From the NCBI RefSeq assembly GCF_035581345.1, contig NZ_CP141608.1, forward strand, positions 4,866,501 through 4,930,500: 64,000 nt of DNA, in the 5' to 3' direction. The position numbers and the translations under genes were made by a program. The notes below the pieces were generated by a model. It saw only the letters and a list, made by a program, of their open reading frames with translations, had not been told where the DNA came from and made no database searches. The stretch is from Pseudomonas sp. JQ170C (GTDB taxonomy: Bacteria; Pseudomonadota; Gammaproteobacteria; Pseudomonadales; Pseudomonadaceae). This document shows positions 15,016 through 54,595 of this stretch, piece after piece (position 1 is the first letter of the stretch; every line of letters starts with the position of its first letter).

Positions 15016-16767
15016 ATGCCTTATTCCTTTCGCGCCCTGCGTCTGGGGCTGATCGTTTTCTTCATCCTCGCCGGCACCCTGTTCACGGCTGGCTGGGCCA
15101 TGCACCACGCCAAGCGCCAGTCGATGGTCGAGGAAGCCGGTCGCGCCAGCCAGCAACTGGGCCTGTATGCCACCTCGCTGCAGACCCTGATCGAACGCTA
15201 CCGCGCCCTGCCCGCCGTACTGGCCCTGGACCCGGAGCTGATCAGCGCCCTGCAGGGCCCGGTCGACGGCCCGGTACAGGACGCCCTCAACCGCAAGCTT
15301 GAGCGTATCAACGGCGCGGCCAACTCCTCGACCCTGGAACTGCTCGACCGTACCGGCCTTGCCGTGGCAGCCAGCAACTGGCGCTTGCCCAGCTCCTACG
15401 TCGGCTCCAACTACGGCTTTCGCCCCTACTTCAAGCAGACCCGCAGCCAGGGTACCGGCCGCTTTTATGCCGTGGGCGTGACCAGCGGCGTGCCGGGCTA
15501 CTTTCTCTCCAGCGCGGTGATGGACGAAAACAGCCGCTTTCTCGGCGCCATGGTGGTCAAGCTGGAGTTCCCGGAGCTTGAACGCGAATGGCGCCAGGGC
15601 AATGACATTTTGCTGGTCAGCGATGCGCGCGGAATCATCTTCATCGCCAACCAGGACGGCTGGCGCTACCGCGAACTCCAGCCCTTGAGCAGCGCCGACC
15701 GTGCCGAGCTGGCCGCCACCCGCCAGTACGACAAGCAACCGCTGGTGCCACTGCAGCACCAGGTACTCAACCGTTTCGACGACAACAGCCACCTGATGCG
15801 CGTGCAGGGCCCCGAAGGCACCACAGAGTACCTGTGGGAGAGCCTGCCCCTGGAAACCGAAGGCTGGACGCTGCACCTGCTGCGCAAACCCCAGGTCAGC
15901 GAAGACGGGCGCAATGCTGCCCTGGCGGCTGCGGCCGTGTGGCTGAGCCTGGTGTTCGCGCTGTTGTTCATCAGCCAGCGCCTGCGCCTGGCCCGCCTGC
16001 GCCAGCGCAGCCGCGAAGAACTCAAGCGCCTGGTCGAAGAGCGCACCCGCGACTTGCGCACCGCCCAGGAAGGCCTGGTGCAATCGGCCAAGCTGGCCGC
16101 CCTGGGGCAGATGTCGGCGGCCCTGGCCCATGAAATCAACCAGCCGCTGACCACCCAGCGCATGCAACTGGCGACCCTGCGCCTGCTGCTCGACAACCAG
16201 CGCTACGACGAAGCCCGCCGGGCCCTGGAGCCGCTGGAGCAAATGCTCACGCGCATGGCGGCCCTCACCGGTCACCTGAAGACCTTCGCCCGCAACAGCC
16301 CCAGCGGCCTGCGCGAGCGCCTGGACCTGGCCACCGTGGTCGATCAGTCGCTGCAACTGCTCGATGCGCGGATTCGTGCCGAACAGGTGGATGTCGCCTT
16401 GTACCTGGCTCGCCCGGCCTGGGTGCGCGGTGATGCCATCCGCCTGGAACAAGTACTGATCAATCTGTTGCGCAATGCCCTGGACGCCATGGCCGGCAAG
16501 CACTTCAAGCGCCTGGAAGTGCGCATCGAAGCCCAGGCCGATCAATGGCGCCTGAGCGTACTCGACAGCGGCGGCGGCATTGCCGCCGAACACCTGGCCA
16601 ATGTCTTCGACCCGTTTTTCACCACCAAGCCGGTGGGTGAAGGCCTGGGCCTGGGGTTGGCGATATCCTATGGCATCATTCATGAGGCCGGTGGGCGCCT
16701 GTCGGTCGAGAACCAACCCGGCGGCGCCTGCTTCAGCCTGACCCTGCCCTGCGATCCGGAGCCTTGA
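15016..16767 (+). CDS. DctB-type sensor histidine kinase
   Basis: The 583-residue inner-membrane kinase has a first membrane helix at about 8-30, a periplasmic double-Cache sensor domain (about 35-295; [25 protein letters not shown]), a second helix at about 300-322, a coiled linker, and a HisKA/HATPase core. The H-box ALAHEINQP gives His372 as the phosphorylated residue. The N-box ([10 protein letters not shown]), G1 (DSGGGI) and G2 (GLGLGLAIS) follow. This is the family that senses C4- or C5-dicarboxylates. Its stop overlaps the regulator's start (TGATG at 16765-16769). With the KgtP-like transporter downstream, 2-oxoglutarate or a related acid is the likely signal, as for MifS of P. aeruginosa. 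Confidence 0.88.
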
Positions 16768-18101
16768 TGTTCAATTCGGTAATGGTTGTCGATGATGAAG
16801 CCAGCATCCGTACTGCCGTGGAGCAGTGGCTGAGCCTGTCAGGCTTCGATGTACAGCTGTTCAGCCGTGCCGAAGACTGCCTCAGGCAACTGCCTGGGCA
16901 CTTTCCCGGCGTCATCCTGAGCGATGTGCGCATGCCGTGCATGGACGGGCTGCAGCTGCTTGAACAGCTTCAGGCCCGCGACCCCGACCTGCCGGTGATC
17001 CTGCTGACCGGCCATGGCGACGTGCCCATGGCGGTGGAGGCCATGCGCAATGGCGCCTACGACTTTCTCGAAAAGCCCTTCAGCCCGGAAAGCCTGCTGG
17101 GCAGCCTTCGCCGCGCCCTGGAAAAACGCCGGCTGATCCTGGATAACCGCCGCCTGCACGAGCAGGCCGACTTCAAGGCGCGCCTGGAACTGAACCTGCT
17201 GGGCATGTCCCAGGGAATGCAACAGCTGCGCCGCCAAGTGCTGGACCTGGCCAGCCTGCCGGTCAATGTACTGATTCGCGGCGAGACCGGCAGCGGCAAG
17301 GAACAGGTCGCACGCTGCCTGCACGACTTCGGGCCGCGGGCCGACAAGCCGTTCGTGGCCCTCAATTGCGCTGCCATTCCCGAACAATTGTTCGAGGCCG
17401 AACTGTTCGGCCATGAAAGCGGTGCGTTCACCGGCGCCCAGGGCAAGCGCATCGGCAAGCTCGAATACGCCAACGGCGGCACGGTGTTTCTCGATGAAAT
17501 CGAGAGCATGCCCCTGGCCCAGCAGGCCAAGTTGTTGCGCGTCCTGCAGGAGCAGAAGCTTGAACGCCTGGGCGCCAACCAGAGCATCAGCGTTGATCTA
17601 CGCATCATCGCCGCGACCAAACCCGACCTGCTCGAAGAAGCCCGCGCCGGGCGCTTTCGCGAAGACCTGGCCTACCGCCTGAATGTCGCCGAACTGCGCC
17701 TGGCCCCCCTGCGCGAGCGGCGCGAAGACATTCCGCTGTTGTTCCAGCACTTTGCCCGCAACGCCGCAGAACGTGTGGGCCGTACCGCCCCCTTGCTCAG
17801 CGGTGCGCACCTGGGCCGGCTGCTGAGCCACGACTGGCCCGGCAACGTCCGCGAGCTTGCCAACGCCGCCGAGCGCCACGCCCTGGGCCTGGGTGACCCT
17901 GTGGTTGCAACGGTGGAGTCCGGCCAGTCATTGGCCGCCCAGCAGGAAGCCTTTGAGGCCCAGTGCCTGCGTGCCGCCTTGAATCGGCACAAAGGCGAGA
18001 TCAAGGCAGTGATGGAAGAGCTGCAGATCCCCCGGCGCACCCTCAACGAAAAAATGCAGCGCCACGGCCTCCAGCGGGAAGATTTCCTCGGCCCCCACTG
18101 A
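16767..18101 (+). CDS. Sigma-54-dependent response regulator, DctD/MifR-like
   Basis: The 444-residue protein has a receiver domain (1-120, phospho-acceptor Asp53 in LSDVRMP), a sigma-54 AAA+ domain (about 145-375; Walker A GETGSGK at 172-178, GAFTGA at 219-224, Walker B GTVFLDEIE), and a Fis-type helix-turn-helix at the end (KGEIKAVMEELQIPRRTLNEKMQ). All residues needed to activate sigma-54 polymerase are present. I chose the ATG at 16767, overlapping the kinase stop, over the TTG at 16764. The target is probably the adjacent transporter, which has a sigma-54 promoter and two candidate enhancer sites. Confidence 0.92.
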   Translation: MFNSVMVVDDEASIRTAVEQWLSLSGFDVQLFSRAEDCLRQLPGHFPGVILSDVRMPCMDGLQLLEQLQARDPDLPVILLTGHGDVPMAVEAMRNGAYDFLEKPFSPESLLGSLRRALEKRRLILDNRRLHEQADFKARLELNLLGMSQGMQQLRRQVLDLASLPVNVLIRGETGSGKEQVARCLHDFGPRADKPFVALNCAAIPEQLFEAELFGHESGAFTGAQGKRIGKLEYANGGTVFLDEIESMPLAQQAKLLRVLQEQKLERLGANQSISVDLRIIAATKPDLLEEARAGRFREDLAYRLNVAELRLAPLRERREDIPLLFQHFARNAAERVGRTAPLLSGAHLGRLLSHDWPGNVRELANAAERHALGLGDPVVATVESGQSLAAQQEAFEAQCLRAALNRHKGEIKAVMEELQIPRRTLNEKMQRHGLQREDFLGPH

Positions 18102-18110
18102 CGCCCGATG

Positions 18111-18157
18111 AGCGGATTCTTGCCTATCACCCCTCGGCCAATAGGCGGATTTCCGCT
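18111..18157 (+). promoter_or_regulatory. Candidate enhancer sites for the sigma-54 regulator
   Basis: Two related sequences, AGCGGATTCTTGCC (18111-18124) and GGCGGATTTCCGCT (18144-18157), have GCGGAT exactly 33 bp apart, three helical turns. The second is an imperfect palindrome (GCGGA-TT-TCCGC). They lie about 45-90 bp upstream of the sigma-54 promoter, where dimers of an NtrC-type activator would bind. Assignment to the adjacent regulator is inference. Confidence 0.5.
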
Positions 18158-18199
18158 TAACGCGCTGCGAAAACCCTTCTAGAACGGGCCTTCGGCACC

Positions 18200-18215
18200 T
18201 GGCACAGCTCCTGCT
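18200..18215 (+). promoter_or_regulatory. Sigma-54 promoter of the KgtP-like transporter
   Basis: TGGCACAGCTCCTGCT matches the -24/-12 consensus TGGCACG-N4-TTGCW with the essential GG and GC at the exact spacing. Transcription would start near 18226, leaving a leader of about 50 nt. The leader also has AACAACT at 18254-18260 just ahead of the AGAAGG ribosome site, a near match to the Hfq/Crc catabolite-repression motif. Confidence 0.8.
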
Positions 18216-18274
18216 ATAGACCTGCCAGGCTGCGTTTCGGCGCGCTCCACAAAAACAACTAGAAGGTTCCGTCC

Positions 18275-19594
18275 ATGGACAACTCCTCTACCCTGCCTGC
18301 TGGGGCGGCTATTGCGCCTGCCGCAGAAAAAACCACCCGTAGCCGCCTCAAGTCGATCTTCAGTGGTTCGATCGGCAACATGGTCGAATGGTACGACTGG
18401 TACGTCTACGCCGCGTTTTCCCTCTACTTCGCCAAAGCCTTCTTCCCGGCCGGCGACACCACCGCACAACTCCTGAACACCGCCGCGATCTTCGCCGTGG
18501 GCTTCTTGATGCGCCCGATCGGCGGCTGGCTGATGGGTATCTATGCCGACCGCAAGGGCCGCAAGGCGGCGCTGATGGCGTCGGTATTGCTGATGTGCGC
18601 CGGTTCGCTGGTCATTGCCCTGACCCCAGGCTATGAAACCATCGGCGTTGCCGCCCCTGTCCTGCTGGTGGTCGCCCGCCTGATGCAAGGCCTGTCGGTG
18701 GGGGGTGAATACGGCACCTCGGCCACCTACCTCAGCGAGATGGCCACCAAGGAACGCCGTGGCTTCTTCTCCAGCTTCCAGTACGTGACCCTGATCTCCG
18801 GCCAGCTCATCGCCCTGGCGGTGCTGATCGTCCTCCAGCAGACCCTGACCACCGAGCAGCTGTATGCCTGGGGCTGGCGCGTACCCTTCGTGATCGGCGC
18901 CCTGTGCGCGGTCGTGGCCCTGTACCTGCGTCGTGGCATGGAAGAAACCGCCTCCTTCACCAAGAAGGAAAAGTCCAAGGAAAGCCTGATGCGCACCCTG
19001 ATGCGCCATCCCAAGGAACTGGCAACCGTGGTCGGCCTGACCATGGGCGGCACCCTGGCGTTCTACACCTACACCACCTACATGCAGAAGTACCTGGTGA
19101 ACACGGTGGGCATGAGCATCAGCGACTCGACCACCATTTCGGCGGCCACGCTGTTCCTGTTCATGTGCCTGCAGCCGATCATCGGCACCCTGTCCGACAA
19201 GATCGGCCGTCGCCCGATCCTGATCGCCTTCGGCGTGCTGGGTACCCTGTTCACCGTCCCGATCCTGACCACCCTGCACACCATCCAGAGCTGGTGGGGC
19301 GCGTTCTTCCTGATCATGGCGGCGCTGATCATCGTCAGCGGCTACACCTCGATCAACGCCGTGGTCAAAGCCGAACTGTTCCCCACCGAGATCCGCGCCC
19401 TGGGCGTCGGCCTGCCTTACGCCTTGACCGTGTCGATCTTCGGCGGCACCGCTGAATACATCGCGCTGTGGTTCAAGAGCATCGGCATGGAAACCGGTTT
19501 CTACTGGTACGTGACTGCCTGTATCGCCTGTTCGCTGCTGGTGTACCTGTTCATGAAGGACACCCAGAAACACTCGCGAATCACCACTGACTGA
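18275..19594 (+). CDS. kgtP: MFS dicarboxylate/2-oxoglutarate permease, KgtP-like
   Basis: The 439-residue protein is a 12-helix metabolite:H+ symporter. The N-terminal region has GNMVEWYDWYVYAAFS at about 35-50, followed by the MFS motif [30 protein letters not shown] near 140, and a second-half SDKIGRRP. These are characteristic of the MHS subfamily (KgtP, ShiA, PcaT). The two-component pair directly upstream and the sigma-54 promoter support a C5/C4-dicarboxylate substrate. By family it couples substrate import to proton entry at the inner membrane. It resembles PcaT in this window but is a separate paralogue. Confidence 0.85.
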   Translation: MDNSSTLPAGAAIAPAAEKTTRSRLKSIFSGSIGNMVEWYDWYVYAAFSLYFAKAFFPAGDTTAQLLNTAAIFAVGFLMRPIGGWLMGIYADRKGRKAALMASVLLMCAGSLVIALTPGYETIGVAAPVLLVVARLMQGLSVGGEYGTSATYLSEMATKERRGFFSSFQYVTLISGQLIALAVLIVLQQTLTTEQLYAWGWRVPFVIGALCAVVALYLRRGMEETASFTKKEKSKESLMRTLMRHPKELATVVGLTMGGTLAFYTYTTYMQKYLVNTVGMSISDSTTISAATLFLFMCLQPIIGTLSDKIGRRPILIAFGVLGTLFTVPILTTLHTIQSWWGAFFLIMAALIIVSGYTSINAVVKAELFPTEIRALGVGLPYALTVSIFGGTAEYIALWFKSIGMETGFYWYVTACIACSLLVYLFMKDTQKHSRITTD

Positions 19595-19695: not shown

Positions 19696-19743
19696 TCGCG
19701 GGGCAAGCCCGCTCCTACCGGTAGGAGCGGGCTTGCCCCGCGA
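19696..19743. repeat. REP inverted pair (48-bp perfect palindrome)
   Basis: Two REP half-elements (TCGCGGGGCAAGCCCGCTCC and its complement) meet head-to-head at ACCGGT with no spacer, giving a 48-bp perfect palindrome between the kgtP terminator and the repeat-protein gene. Confidence 0.92.
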
Positions 19744-19768
19744 ACATACATCGAATTAACAGATTATT

Positions 19769-19791
19769 AAGCGCATGTTTTTGCGCTTTTT
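19769..19791 (+). terminator. Small hairpin with T-tract upstream of the repeat-protein gene
   Basis: AAGCGCA / TGCGCTT pair with a 6-nt T-rich loop and are followed by further T residues. It could be a second weak terminator after kgtP, or part of the upstream region of the next gene. It is too short to be certain. Confidence 0.4.
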
Positions 19792-19860
19792 AATCAATTT
19801 AATCGGCGTAGCATTGAACCCATAGAAACAAACAACCTTCACCCCCCCGGAGCAACGACC

Positions 19861-20265
19861 ATGAAAAGCAAACTGATCCTGACCCTGGCCTTCTCGGTAC
19901 TGGCTGCCAACGCTTTCGCCGAAGATGGCTTCGACCGCACCAACGCCCACAGTTTCAGCGCCATCCAGAGCCAGTCGGCTACGTATGCAGAAGATGGTTT
20001 TGATCGCACTGGCGCTGCCAAATTCGCCGAAGACGGTTTCGATCGCACTGGCGCTGCCAAATTCGCCGAAGACGGTTTCGATCGCACCGGCGCTGCCAAA
20101 TTCGCCGAAGACGGTTTCGATCGCACCGGCGCTGCCAAATTCGCCGAAGACGGTTTCGATCGCACCGGCGCCGCCAAATTCGCCGAAGACGGCTTTGATC
20201 GCACTGGCGGTGCCCGCTTCGCTGAAGATGGCTTCGATCGCACCCAGGCCCACCGCATCAGCTAA
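19861..20265 (+). CDS. Exported protein built of eight EDGFDRT repeats
   Basis: The 134-residue precursor has a clear signal peptide (1-20, ending ANAFA). The rest is repeats: a first unit of 23 residues (21-43), then seven units of exactly 13 residues, five reading EDGFDRTGAAKFA, one EDGFDRTGGARFA, and the last EDGFDRTQAHRIS. The core EDGFDRT thus occurs eight times without variation. At DNA level the 39-bp unit recurs from 19990 to 20262 with few, mostly synonymous changes. The mature chain is acidic and has no Cys, Trp or Met. CGGAG lies ahead of the ATG and a terminator follows, so it is its own transcript. I do not know the function. Options include a precursor of short peptides, a metal-binding protein or a cell-surface adhesin. 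Confidence 0.88.
   Translation: MKSKLILTLAFSVLAANAFAEDGFDRTNAHSFSAIQSQSATYAEDGFDRTGAAKFAEDGFDRTGAAKFAEDGFDRTGAAKFAEDGFDRTGAAKFAEDGFDRTGAAKFAEDGFDRTGGARFAEDGFDRTQAHRIS
19990..20262 (+). repeat. Seven in-frame tandem 39-bp repeats inside the EDGFDRT gene
   Basis: Units begin at 19990, 20029, 20068, 20107, 20146, 20185 and 20224. The central copies are almost identical, suggesting recent expansion by slippage or unequal exchange. The outer copies have diverged more. Copy number is therefore likely to vary between strains. Confidence 0.93.
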
Positions 20266-20284: not shown

Positions 20285-20314
20285 AGCCCGGCTTCGGCCG
20301 GGCTTAATCGTTTT
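20285..20314 (+). terminator. Terminator after the EDGFDRT-repeat gene
   Basis: AGCCCGGC-TTCG-GCCGGGCT is a perfect 8-bp stem with a stable tetraloop, followed by TAATCGTTTT. The imperfect T-tract is still convincing given the position 20 bp after the stop. Confidence 0.8.
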
Positions 20315-20378: not shown

Positions 20379-20990
20379 ATGTACTACTACGAACCCGCAA
20401 AAGGCCACGGCCTGCCCCACGACCCTTTCAATGCCATCGTCGGCCCGCGCCCCATCGGCTGGATTTCCTCCCAGGATGCCGAAGGCCGGCTAAACCTTGC
20501 GCCCTACAGCTTTTTCAACGCCTTCAATTACATTCCGCCGATCATCGGCTTCTCCAGCGTCGGCCGCAAAGACAGCCTGAACAACATCGAGAAGACCGGT
20601 GAGTTCGCCTGGAACCTGGCCACGCGCCCGCTGGCCGATGCCATGAACCAGAGCTGCGCCGCCGTTTCGCCCGAGGTCGACGAGTTCGCCCTGAGTGGTC
20701 TGACCCCCGTGGCGTCCAAGGTGATTGCCGTACCTCGGGTGCAGGAAAGCCCGGTGTCGTTTGAATGCAAGGTCACCCAGATCATCCAGCTGCAACGGGC
20801 TGACCAGGTGCTGGTGCCGAGCTGGTTGATCCTGGGGGAAGTGGTGGCGGTGCATATTGCCGAGCATCTGCTCAAGGACGGCATCTACGATACCGCCGCG
20901 GCGCAGCCGATCTTGCGTGGGGGTGGTCCTGCGGACTACTTCGAGCTGGGCAACCTGTTCAAGATGGCCCGCCCGCAGGTCAACGGCTGA
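20379..20990 (+). CDS. Flavin reductase-like FMN-binding protein
   Basis: The 203-residue protein begins MYYYEPAKGHGLPHDPFNAIVGPRPIGWISS and contains LAPYSFFNAFNYIPPIIGFSS, both typical of the flavin-reductase-like split-barrel family that binds FMN. I start it at 20379: the longer reading from 20277 passes through the preceding terminator and encodes nothing family-like. By family it may use NAD(P)H to reduce flavin or act as an FMN-dependent oxidoreductase. No partner oxygenase is adjacent, so the substrate is unknown. Confidence 0.82.
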   Translation: MYYYEPAKGHGLPHDPFNAIVGPRPIGWISSQDAEGRLNLAPYSFFNAFNYIPPIIGFSSVGRKDSLNNIEKTGEFAWNLATRPLADAMNQSCAAVSPEVDEFALSGLTPVASKVIAVPRVQESPVSFECKVTQIIQLQRADQVLVPSWLILGEVVAVHIAEHLLKDGIYDTAAAQPILRGGGPADYFELGNLFKMARPQVNG

Positions 20991-27535: not shown

Positions 27536-28420
27536 CTACCACTTCATCTCGCCCTTGGCGACCTTGGCGCCGAGCTCAAGCGAGCTCACCTCACCAAGGT
27601 CCGGGTAACGTTTTTTCATCGCCGCAATCAGCTCGGCGGCATTGCCGGCCTTGGCGGTTTCCTGGTCGAACGCGCGGATGTAGCCAGCGGTAAAGTGAAC
27701 CGCTTCAAGCGACGTGCCGGGCTGTCCCAGGTAATGCCCTGGCACCACGACCTGCGGCTTGAGCTGCTCGATGCGCGCAAGGGTCGCCAGCCAGTCCTTG
27801 TGCGACTGCGCCGTCTGGGTGTCGGCCATCCACACATGAAGGTTTTGCGCGACCACCACACCGCCGACGACCGCCTTGATCGAGGGGATCCAGACGAAGC
27901 TGCGATCCGGCTGCGGACCATCGAGGCCGATCACTTGCAAAGGCTGCCCTTCAAGCACCAGTTGATTGCCTTCCAGGATGCCCGGCACCACCAGCCTGTC
28001 CGGTTTGTCGGCGCCCATCTGCGGGCCCCAGTAGGCCAGCTTGCCGTCCATGGTCTGTTTGATGTGCGCCACCGTTGCCGCCGAGGCCACGACCCTGGCG
28101 TGAGGATAGGCGTCGGTCAGGGTCTGCAAGCCGAAGTAATAGTCCGGATCGCCATGGCTGATATAGATGGTGGTCAACTGCTTGCCGCTGGCCCGCAGCC
28201 GGGCCAGGACCTGTTCCGCCTGGCCTTTGCCGAACTGGGCATCGACCAGAATGGCGTCATGCTTGCCACTGACGATGACCGAGCTGACCGGGAACAAGGC
28301 ATCCGTCCCCGGATTGAAGACATCCAGCTGCAGCGGCTGCTCGGCAGCATTTACCTGGGCCAGCGCCCCCAGGGTGGCGAAAGCCAGCAGCAAGCGGCGA
28401 AAGGAGAATGAACGACGCAT
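27536..28420 (-). CDS. Exported metallo-beta-lactamase-fold protein with altered metal motif
   Basis: The 294-residue protein has a signal peptide (1-25, ending VNA) and an MBL-fold body: PVSSVIVSGKHDAILVDAQFG, then ISHGDPDYYFG in place of the usual HxHxDH, followed by VVPGHYLGQPG. Two of the four histidines of the main metal motif are thus replaced by Asp and Tyr, so metal binding may be altered or partial. AGGAA precedes the ATG at 28420. The longer reading from 28525 would overlap the divergent LysR start. It may form an operon with the oxidoreductase gene that follows 30 bp downstream. Substrate is unknown. Confidence 0.8.
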   Translation of the reverse strand: MRRSFSFRRLLLAFATLGALAQVNAAEQPLQLDVFNPGTDALFPVSSVIVSGKHDAILVDAQFGKGQAEQVLARLRASGKQLTTIYISHGDPDYYFGLQTLTDAYPHARVVASAATVAHIKQTMDGKLAYWGPQMGADKPDRLVVPGILEGNQLVLEGQPLQVIGLDGPQPDRSFVWIPSIKAVVGGVVVAQNLHVWMADTQTAQSHKDWLATLARIEQLKPQVVVPGHYLGQPGTSLEAVHFTAGYIRAFDQETAKAGNAAELIAAMKKRYPDLGEVSSLELGAKVAKGEMKW

Positions 28421-54473: not shown

Positions 54474-54595
54474 GTAGGAGCGGGCTTGCCCCGCGATAGC
54501 GATGTGGATGGAAGGCCGCTATCGCGGGGCAAGCCCGCTCCCACAGCAAGTCCTCTCCACAGCAAGCCCTCTCCCACAACAAGCCCGCTCCTACG
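54474..54595. repeat. REP pair followed by three degenerate REP-derived direct repeats
   Basis: A normal inverted pair lies at 54474-54496 and 54522-54544. It is followed by three shorter copies in direct orientation, beginning CAGCAAGTCCTCTC, CAGCAAGCCCTCTC and CAACAAGCCCGCTCCTAC. The last copy supplies the TAG stop codon of pcaK. The block separates pcaK from the pcaI operator. Confidence 0.85.

Follow-up and report, generated by a model that had tools for sequence, protein, structure and literature searches.

The tandem-repeat gene described here lies in a stretch of 64,000 nucleotides from Pseudomonas sp. JQ170C, the whole of which is called the window below, and it stands between a gene for an MFS transporter and a gene for a flavin-reductase-like protein (Table 1). 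Directly upstream of the repeat gene (window 15016-19594) a sensor kinase, an NtrC-type regulator and the MFS transporter follow consecutively, a set which resembles dicarboxylate uptake genes and which we take to be DctB/DctD/KgtP-like. The palindrome that precedes the promoter is presumably a REP-like element, and a related arm, GCAAGCCCGCTCCCACA, recurs at window 54529-54591. Near the tandem-repeat gene no Rfam match was found. A terminator of its own had been ascribed to the gene by the sequence-only reading on which this analysis builds; a terminator-like hairpin does lie 3' of the gene, but it is weak evidence, the scan having found 2 such sites in the whole stretch against 1.1 expected from shuffles.

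Table 1. Positions of the tandem-repeat gene, its promoter elements and its neighbours in the window
Feature	Position	Strand	Basis or remark
MFS transporter, upstream neighbour, outside the system	18275..19594	+	Pfam MFS_1/Sugar_tr
Perfect 24-nt palindrome between MFS gene and repeat-gene promoter	19696..19743	.	
LysR-type box ATCGAATTAACAGAT, ATC(N9)GAT interrupted palindrome	19750..19764	+	111 nt before ATG
Second conserved promoter element TTTTTGCGCTTTTTAATCAATTTAATCGG	19778..19806	+	resembles its counterpart in azoreductase promoters
Likely core promoter, TTAATC - 16 nt - CATAGA	19799..19826	+	inferred from conservation
Tandem-repeat gene	19861..20265, stop included	+	134 aa, ATG start, frame open, GGAG upstream
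Sec-type signal peptide MKSKLILTLAFSVLAANAFA, 20 residues	19861..19920	+	predicted by eye; conserved in family alignments
Repeat unit 1, 23 residues, EDGFDRT + spacer NAHSFSAIQSQSATYA	19921..19989	+	
Seven 13-residue units, EDGFDRT-xxx[KR][FI][AS]	19990..20262	+	
Terminator-like hairpin 3' of tandem-repeat gene	20285..20304	+	terminator scan
Flavin-reductase-like protein, downstream neighbour, outside the system as far as shown	20379..20990	+	Pfam PF01613; start moved by eye from 20277

Gene product and repeat units

The predicted mature protein, 114 residues long, is made up entirely of a first unit of 23 residues and seven further units of 13, each of which opens with the heptad EDGFDRT, and the eight heptads are identical at the protein level. 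The earlier description of an exported protein of eight invariant EDGFDRT units, seven of them exactly 13 residues long, was confirmed for the frame, the unit lengths and the heptads, while the Sec signal is a prediction. Its statement that the units are acidic and lack Cys, Trp and Met also stood, though the mature part is only mildly acidic (net charge -9 per 114 residues). The signal junction is without Cys, and the window protein is therefore not lipoprotein-like. At the DNA level the array was detected as a 39-bp repeat of 6.5 copies with a 92% match (TRF). Two synonymous codons are used at five of the seven heptad codon positions among the eight window heptads with zero amino-acid changes, and because the synonymous codons differ in this way, the invariance of the heptad goes beyond recent copying.

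Comparison of the window protein with Pfam and NCBIfam gave sub-threshold matches only and no accepted domain; those to Pfam Apex and TetR_N, and to the NCBIfam PtrA N-terminal domain (E 0.018), were dropped. The AlphaFold2 model of the window protein (pLDDT 44, pTM 0.13) fits disorder and equally a poor alignment. That of a paralogue with 16 repeats has low-confidence strands, about one per unit (pLDDT 48.5, pTM 0.33), and a repeat fold may be compatible with these weak per-unit strands.

Family, distribution and labels

A search for such tandem repeats across Pseudomonas, suggested when the gene was first described, found a family match in 139 of 149 same-genus genomes, many of them with several, and none in the remaining 10; among the window gene and its orthologues the number of repeats per gene runs from 2 to 9 (strict motif count, 79 genes), changing mostly by 13 residues. 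One protein search, in which 7992 candidates were scored, gave at least 91 relatives. In a family-wide draw at least 77 of 148 genomes, from 10 of 19 genera, had a match, as had 24 of 25 genomes of the P. aeruginosa-like genus. A class-wide draw gave matches in 2 of 229 genomes, namely the window genome and one from another family; the latter match, which is short and N-terminal, covers profile positions of approximately 22-67 inside large open frames and was not counted as a family member. On these sequence searches the tandem-repeat family has so far been seen only in Pseudomonadaceae or nearby. Three of 80 named records bear other genus names (Pantoea twice, and one Paucimonas MAG) and are taken to be misnamed pseudomonads.

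The window genome has a second family gene, built of AEGGSDRLLERNRV units. In the paralogues read, units are alike within one protein and distinct between paralogues, and arrays therefore look homogenised; judged by eye, the unit length of paralogues ranges between roughly 12 and 23 residues. Five consecutive family genes with near-identical promoters were observed at L032:5430-9906, where CAGC/CAGT runs precede two of them.

Among the matches listed, named relatives are called 'hypothetical', 'heme utilization protein' and, once, 'phage infection protein'; a second search, for which a P. aeruginosa-like member served as query, brought up the last label on several relatives. Although several family members in Pseudomonas records carry these two functional labels, the window protein has no match to a Pip/YhgE phage infection domain or a heme domain in Pfam or NCBIfam, and the labels look like old misnomers. 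The 'phage infection protein' of PMC7466150 is an abortive-infection gene outside the tandem-repeat family, and the 'heme utilization protein' of PMC5767178 is PA1302, which is unrelated. The available text of PMC8490769 places a 'phage infection protein' with a Sec signal in the InvF regulon, a link by label only. A tentative assignment of the KT2440 orthologue to PP_1399 was dropped, the literature match concerning another organism, and a literature text search with the motif strings found no paper.

Selection and repeat number

Selection was read from the window gene and 78 orthologous loci, a set with a bias in that the loci were chosen by similarity; two contig-end fragments (L130, L131) were left out of it. 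A total of 366 thirteen-residue units were taken from 75 of the 79 genes, L059, L115, L118 and L122 having been dropped on account of a gap, a wrong start or contig ends. The spacing between units, measured over 375 intervals, is 13 residues in 295; a further 77 intervals, which correspond to the first unit, measure 23 residues, two measure 22, and one that spans an assembly gap measures 30. Along the heptad the identity per position is 95, 98, 99.7, 96, 99, 93 and 100% over the 366 units, and at the six spacer positions it is 53-81%. The most conserved heptad residues are T (366 of 366 units), G (365), D5 (361) and D2 (359).

The ratio pN/pS between neighbouring units of one protein (last unit omitted) is 0.027 in the heptad and 0.16 in the spacer, and for orthologues compared with the first 13-mer of the window it is 0.021 and 1.6, respectively; these are simple counts over related, non-independent genes, in which a codon with multiple changes was assigned entirely to the synonymous or entirely to the non-synonymous class, and this may inflate the ratio. 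The counts support the conclusion that the heptad letters are under purifying selection and the spacer is drifting, and the earlier proposal that selection acts on EDGFDRT itself agrees with the lower heptad ratio within arrays. Frameshifts or loss of the heptad in close relatives had been named as arguments against a functional peptide; no broken frame was seen in the 78 orthologous loci, among which two genes are truncated at the edge of a contig and a third contains an assembly gap, and the changes are of whole 13-mers.

These results bear on the explanation that the array is an expressed but functionless by-product of replication slippage. It would account for the free change of repeat number, the homogenised arrays within each gene and the 10 of 149 genomes without a match, but it is weakened by the selection result (heptad pN/pS near 0.02-0.03), by the presence of the family in 139 of 149 species genomes and by a promoter that is conserved and shared, and we regard it as very improbable.

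The conserved D-G-x-D, together with the low-confidence strands of the long paralogue, would suit a metal-binding, RTX-like repeat that folds on binding an ion (e.g. Ca2+), with DGxD as the ligand set. Neither the window protein nor eight relatives has a Pfam match to RTX or another metal repeat, the GGxGxDxUx nonapeptide is absent, and by eye a number of units in paralogues carry almost no net charge, all of which makes this an improbable account of the repeats.

Processing at the unit junctions

At the signal junction Ala occupies positions -1 and -3 in 75 of 75 genes. The junctions that follow 13-mers (n=291) have Ala at -1 in 282 cases and Arg or Lys at -3 in 290, and the junction after the 23-residue unit has Thr, Ser, Ala or Gly at -3 in 63 of 75 genes and Ala at -1 in 70 of 75. 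Signal peptidase requires small residues at -3 and -1. As judged from these residues, release of 13-mers by this enzyme is unlikely, because position -3 between them is basic in all but one junction; a single cut after the 23-residue unit would be possible, because the two positions there are mostly small, and some other protease may cleave the chain. The sequence-only reading, which had likened the unit junctions to the signal junction and thought of one protease for both, thus held for the Ala at -1 but not for the basic residue at -3.

A polyprotein precursor, from which an envelope protease would free many 13-residue signal or effector peptides outside the cell by cutting the junctions, is suggested by the exact 13-residue spacing of most intervals and the 23 residues of nearly all others, by the Ala before the next heptad with Arg/Lys two residues earlier, which suits a trypsin-like cut, and by the junction after the 23-residue unit, which mostly obeys the small-residue rule. 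We think such a precursor unlikely, since the spacer, which such a peptide would include, is free to drift, unit length varies among paralogues, position -3 between 13-mers is unlike a signal-peptidase site, and the immediate neighbours are the MFS transporter and the flavin-reductase-like gene, with no protease.

Promoter and LysR-type box

Upstream of the orthologues approximately 90 nt are strongly conserved. ATC(N9)GAT, an interrupted palindrome of the kind used by LysR-type regulators, was found upstream of 77 of the 79 genes of the window locus (shuffle mean 3.2) and of 57 of 541 other ORFs. A sigma-70 consensus scan found no match at the likely core promoter, such a scan being weak evidence.

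The consensus of the regulator MexT is given as ATYA(N7)YGAT in the available text of PMC11432991 and PMC11144800. Among the 27 other family genes in the genus, 22 have this form in their upstream region (shuffle mean 0.2), a count which includes five genes of one tandem cluster and in which L047 and L051 look window-type; so do 13 of 14 distinct P. aeruginosa-like family genes (shuffle mean 0.3, computed on 13 rows with one gene counted twice). It precedes 17 of 541 other ORFs, a control set that still includes family genes; family genes from other genera, L147, L148 and L157 among them, were left out of the box counts. The exact longer pattern ATYA(N7)YGAT(N4)ACYAT has two sites in the window genome (backward control 0), one of which lies in front of the second family gene, as its promoter. 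The other was observed at window 28139-28162 on the minus strand.

The box of the window gene itself reads ATCG-N7-AGAT and departs from the strict MexT form. Only 3 of 79 window-locus genes have the strict form (shuffle mean 1.2), whereas 44 of 79 fit once either A or G is accepted (shuffle mean 1.9), and the locus mostly has G or T at the position where the MexT form has A. A narrower pattern of the window type found no match in the own genome, the window gene itself included. Because the box fails the strict form, a LysR regulator other than MexT may act at the window locus; that MexT itself is the regulator there is proposed with moderate confidence.

Genes sharing the promoter

A sequence-only promoter model was built from 27 promoters, exclusively of tandem-repeat family genes. 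Within the own genome it matched its own site (E 4.5e-25; reverse strand, E 0.016) and an azoR promoter (E 0.003), the gene behind the latter being FMN-dependent NADH-azoreductase-like (Pfam Flavodoxin_2; NCBIfam azoreductase models below their cut-offs). Matches were found in 57 of 59 same-genus genomes, and the two others, G020 and G056, have family genes but no promoter-model match. The 71 matches read, comprising the own azoR site, 30 with a locus and the next 40 by E-value, are followed by 29 family genes, 32 AzoR genes, 6 genes for YqjG-type glutathionyl-hydroquinone reductase, 3 DoxX genes and, in one case, none, so that 70 of 71 precede one of these four types; the 29 family-gene matches are partly training set, and the other 41 of these 70 are independent of the model. 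The downstream genes were sorted by sequence motifs, and Pfam was used to check a single example each of AzoR, YqjG (GST domains) and DoxX.

The family thus has a promoter in common with AzoR, YqjG and DoxX genes, and shared control with the quinone enzymes is proposed with high confidence. The gene had been read as a stand-alone system with no obvious partner, which fits its immediate neighbours but not its control, the promoter being common to azoreductase, hydroquinone-reductase and DoxX genes. Of the ten genomes without a family match, the five that were in this draw (G003, G013, G014, G027 and G054) all have promoter-model matches, of which those read precede AzoR in G027 (L224) and DoxX in G054 (L258); the control system can therefore exist without a detected repeat gene. 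At L235 a conserved AzoR-type promoter was observed with no azoreductase found behind it and with a transporter like the one that follows the own-genome azoR, as if azoR had been lost behind its promoter.

A LysR gene was observed at L196:1490-2413 on the minus strand, about 0.5 kb from the own-genome azoR; the two genes are divergent, and a small gene may separate them. This LysR gene is a candidate for the regulator of the azoR/repeat-gene regulon; a comparison of its product to solved structures, under a strict cut-off, gave no match, and its NCBIfam matches were all below cut-off. A literature text search on LysR/MexT, azoreductase, quinone, glutathionyl-hydroquinone reductase and Pseudomonas found no paper.

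Relatives in P. aeruginosa and published expression data

Genome G270 is P. aeruginosa-like, the product of its family gene on L189 being 90% identical to P0120 and close to P. aeruginosa-named proteins. This gene lies directly behind cdrA/cdrB-like genes (L189:4211-9980, minus strand), which would encode a biofilm matrix adhesin and its exporter, and a further family gene, on L190, has as neighbours a ferritin-like gene and one for a molybdopterin oxidoreductase. By PAO1 gene order, the L190 gene is presumably PA4881 and the L189 gene PA4623. A family profile from an alignment without P. aeruginosa-like members finds the PA4623-like gene with E 3.2e-13 and the PA4881-like gene with E 1.0e-8. 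A MexT box stands 107 nt before the ATG of the PA4881-like gene; the PA4623-like gene has no strict MexT box in the 200 nt upstream, though PA4623 depends on MexT.

The log2 changes in a delta-mexT strain are -6.5 for PA4881, -5.8 for PA4623 and -2.5 for PA2813, and PA4881 tops the listed part of the PAO1 delta-mexT table with a drop equal to that of efflux-pump genes known to belong to MexT (available text of PMC12607905). The sequence-only reading knew of no described function, which holds for the protein itself; its relative PA4881, however, is already in print as an uncharacterised 'tandem repeat protein' under MexT, whose promoter is also bound by PA2206 and whose mutant had no extra peroxide sensitivity in disk tests (data not shown there; available text of PMC3557286). 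PA4881 and PA4623 are both raised by Z-ethylthio enynone, according to the available text of PMC10848761. When P. fluorescens In5 faces Rhizoctonia solani, azoreductases go up 142- and 10-fold, and with them a 'phage infection protein' (32x), YqjG (23.5x), DoxX (5.9x) and a pirin (43x), as given in the available text of PMC5557065. Apart from the pirin, the induced gene types are those of the promoter model, the link of the In5 protein to the family being by label alone.

The position of the L189 gene behind the cdrA/cdrB-like genes is what a surface or biofilm-matrix protein might have, with repeats that bind a matrix partner and stress control as a secondary matter. A 'heme utilization protein' of P. 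fragi, comparable by label only, falls from biofilm initiation to maturation (available text of PMC7921472). The promoter partners read, on the other hand, are reductases and DoxX with no matrix genes, and the domain comparisons of the window protein gave nothing to indicate an anchor; a matrix role is accordingly one we would not expect.

Proposed function

The reading we put forward, with nearly as much credence as doubt, is that a LysR-type (MexT-like) regulator controls the gene along with those of enzymes which reduce quinones and electrophiles, and that its product is a multivalent buffer of the envelope, every heptad providing a single binding site. When quinones or similar compounds arrive, the gene would be switched on by a LysR regulator responsive to redox state or electrophiles, predicted Sec export would put a predicted disordered chain of eight EDGFDRT sites into the cell envelope, and along this flexible chain the heptads would offer numerous binding sites, all equal and independent of one another. 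We infer that the window locus answers to a regulator of this class and, less firmly, that the product is retained in the envelope and binds a stress-related ligand (a metal, an aromatic or an electrophile). Confidence in the buffer role of the repeat chain is modest; a buffer of repeated sites would account for a motif that is fixed in an array whose repeat number, spacing and spacer sequence are free. Thiols or amines are unlikely to trap quinones covalently here, because the heptad is without Cys and Lys is not conserved; the conservation of D, D, R and T favours as ligand a metal, an envelope partner or a molecule that is charged or aromatic. More speculatively, and with a good deal more doubt, such DGxD-R-T arrays could form a class of Cys-free Pseudomonas envelope buffers, dosed by repeat number and gene number and driven by the promoter that also serves quinone reductases, which bind redox-active toxins, or metals set free by these, and neutralise them before they reach the cytoplasm.

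What is new here is the regulatory setting, the gene being a conserved, selected member of a known but functionally blank family. The orphan PA4881 is now tied to a family found in nearly every sampled Pseudomonas genome, and that family to concrete co-controlled enzymes annotated for quinones and hydroquinones. A 'hypothetical protein' thereby becomes a testable claim about envelope chemical defence in soil and plant bacteria that meet fungi and plant phenolics.

Comparison with known systems

RTX nonapeptide proteins have a G-x-D-x-hydrophobic core in tandem in common with some family paralogues, whereas the window protein has a 13-residue period, no GGxGxDxUx and no Pfam match. The bufferins and HvfA-type copper-binding RiPPs are like the window protein in being small, Sec-exported and stress-induced with a repeated motif, export and induction being predictions in the present case. 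Bufferins depend on repeated Cys, however, which the mature window protein lacks, and no bufferin-type modifying enzymes are found among the immediate neighbours of its gene. The DoxX protein at L237:130-561, under the shared promoter, resembles the HvfX of the bufferin/HvfA systems (NF050144, 68 bits, below the cut-off of 80), HvfX being a maturation partner of copper-binding RiPPs. Compared with PA4881 and PA4623, the window protein differs in its EDGFDRT units of 13-residue period, those of the P. aeruginosa-like proteins being longer (NGSERTIDRLHKDM..., about 18-23 residues by eye), and its gene has a box that departs from the strict MexT form, unlike the MexT box of the PA4881-like gene. 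These proteins are like it in that they, too, consist of exported repeats with G-x-[DE]-R-T-like motifs after a signal peptide.
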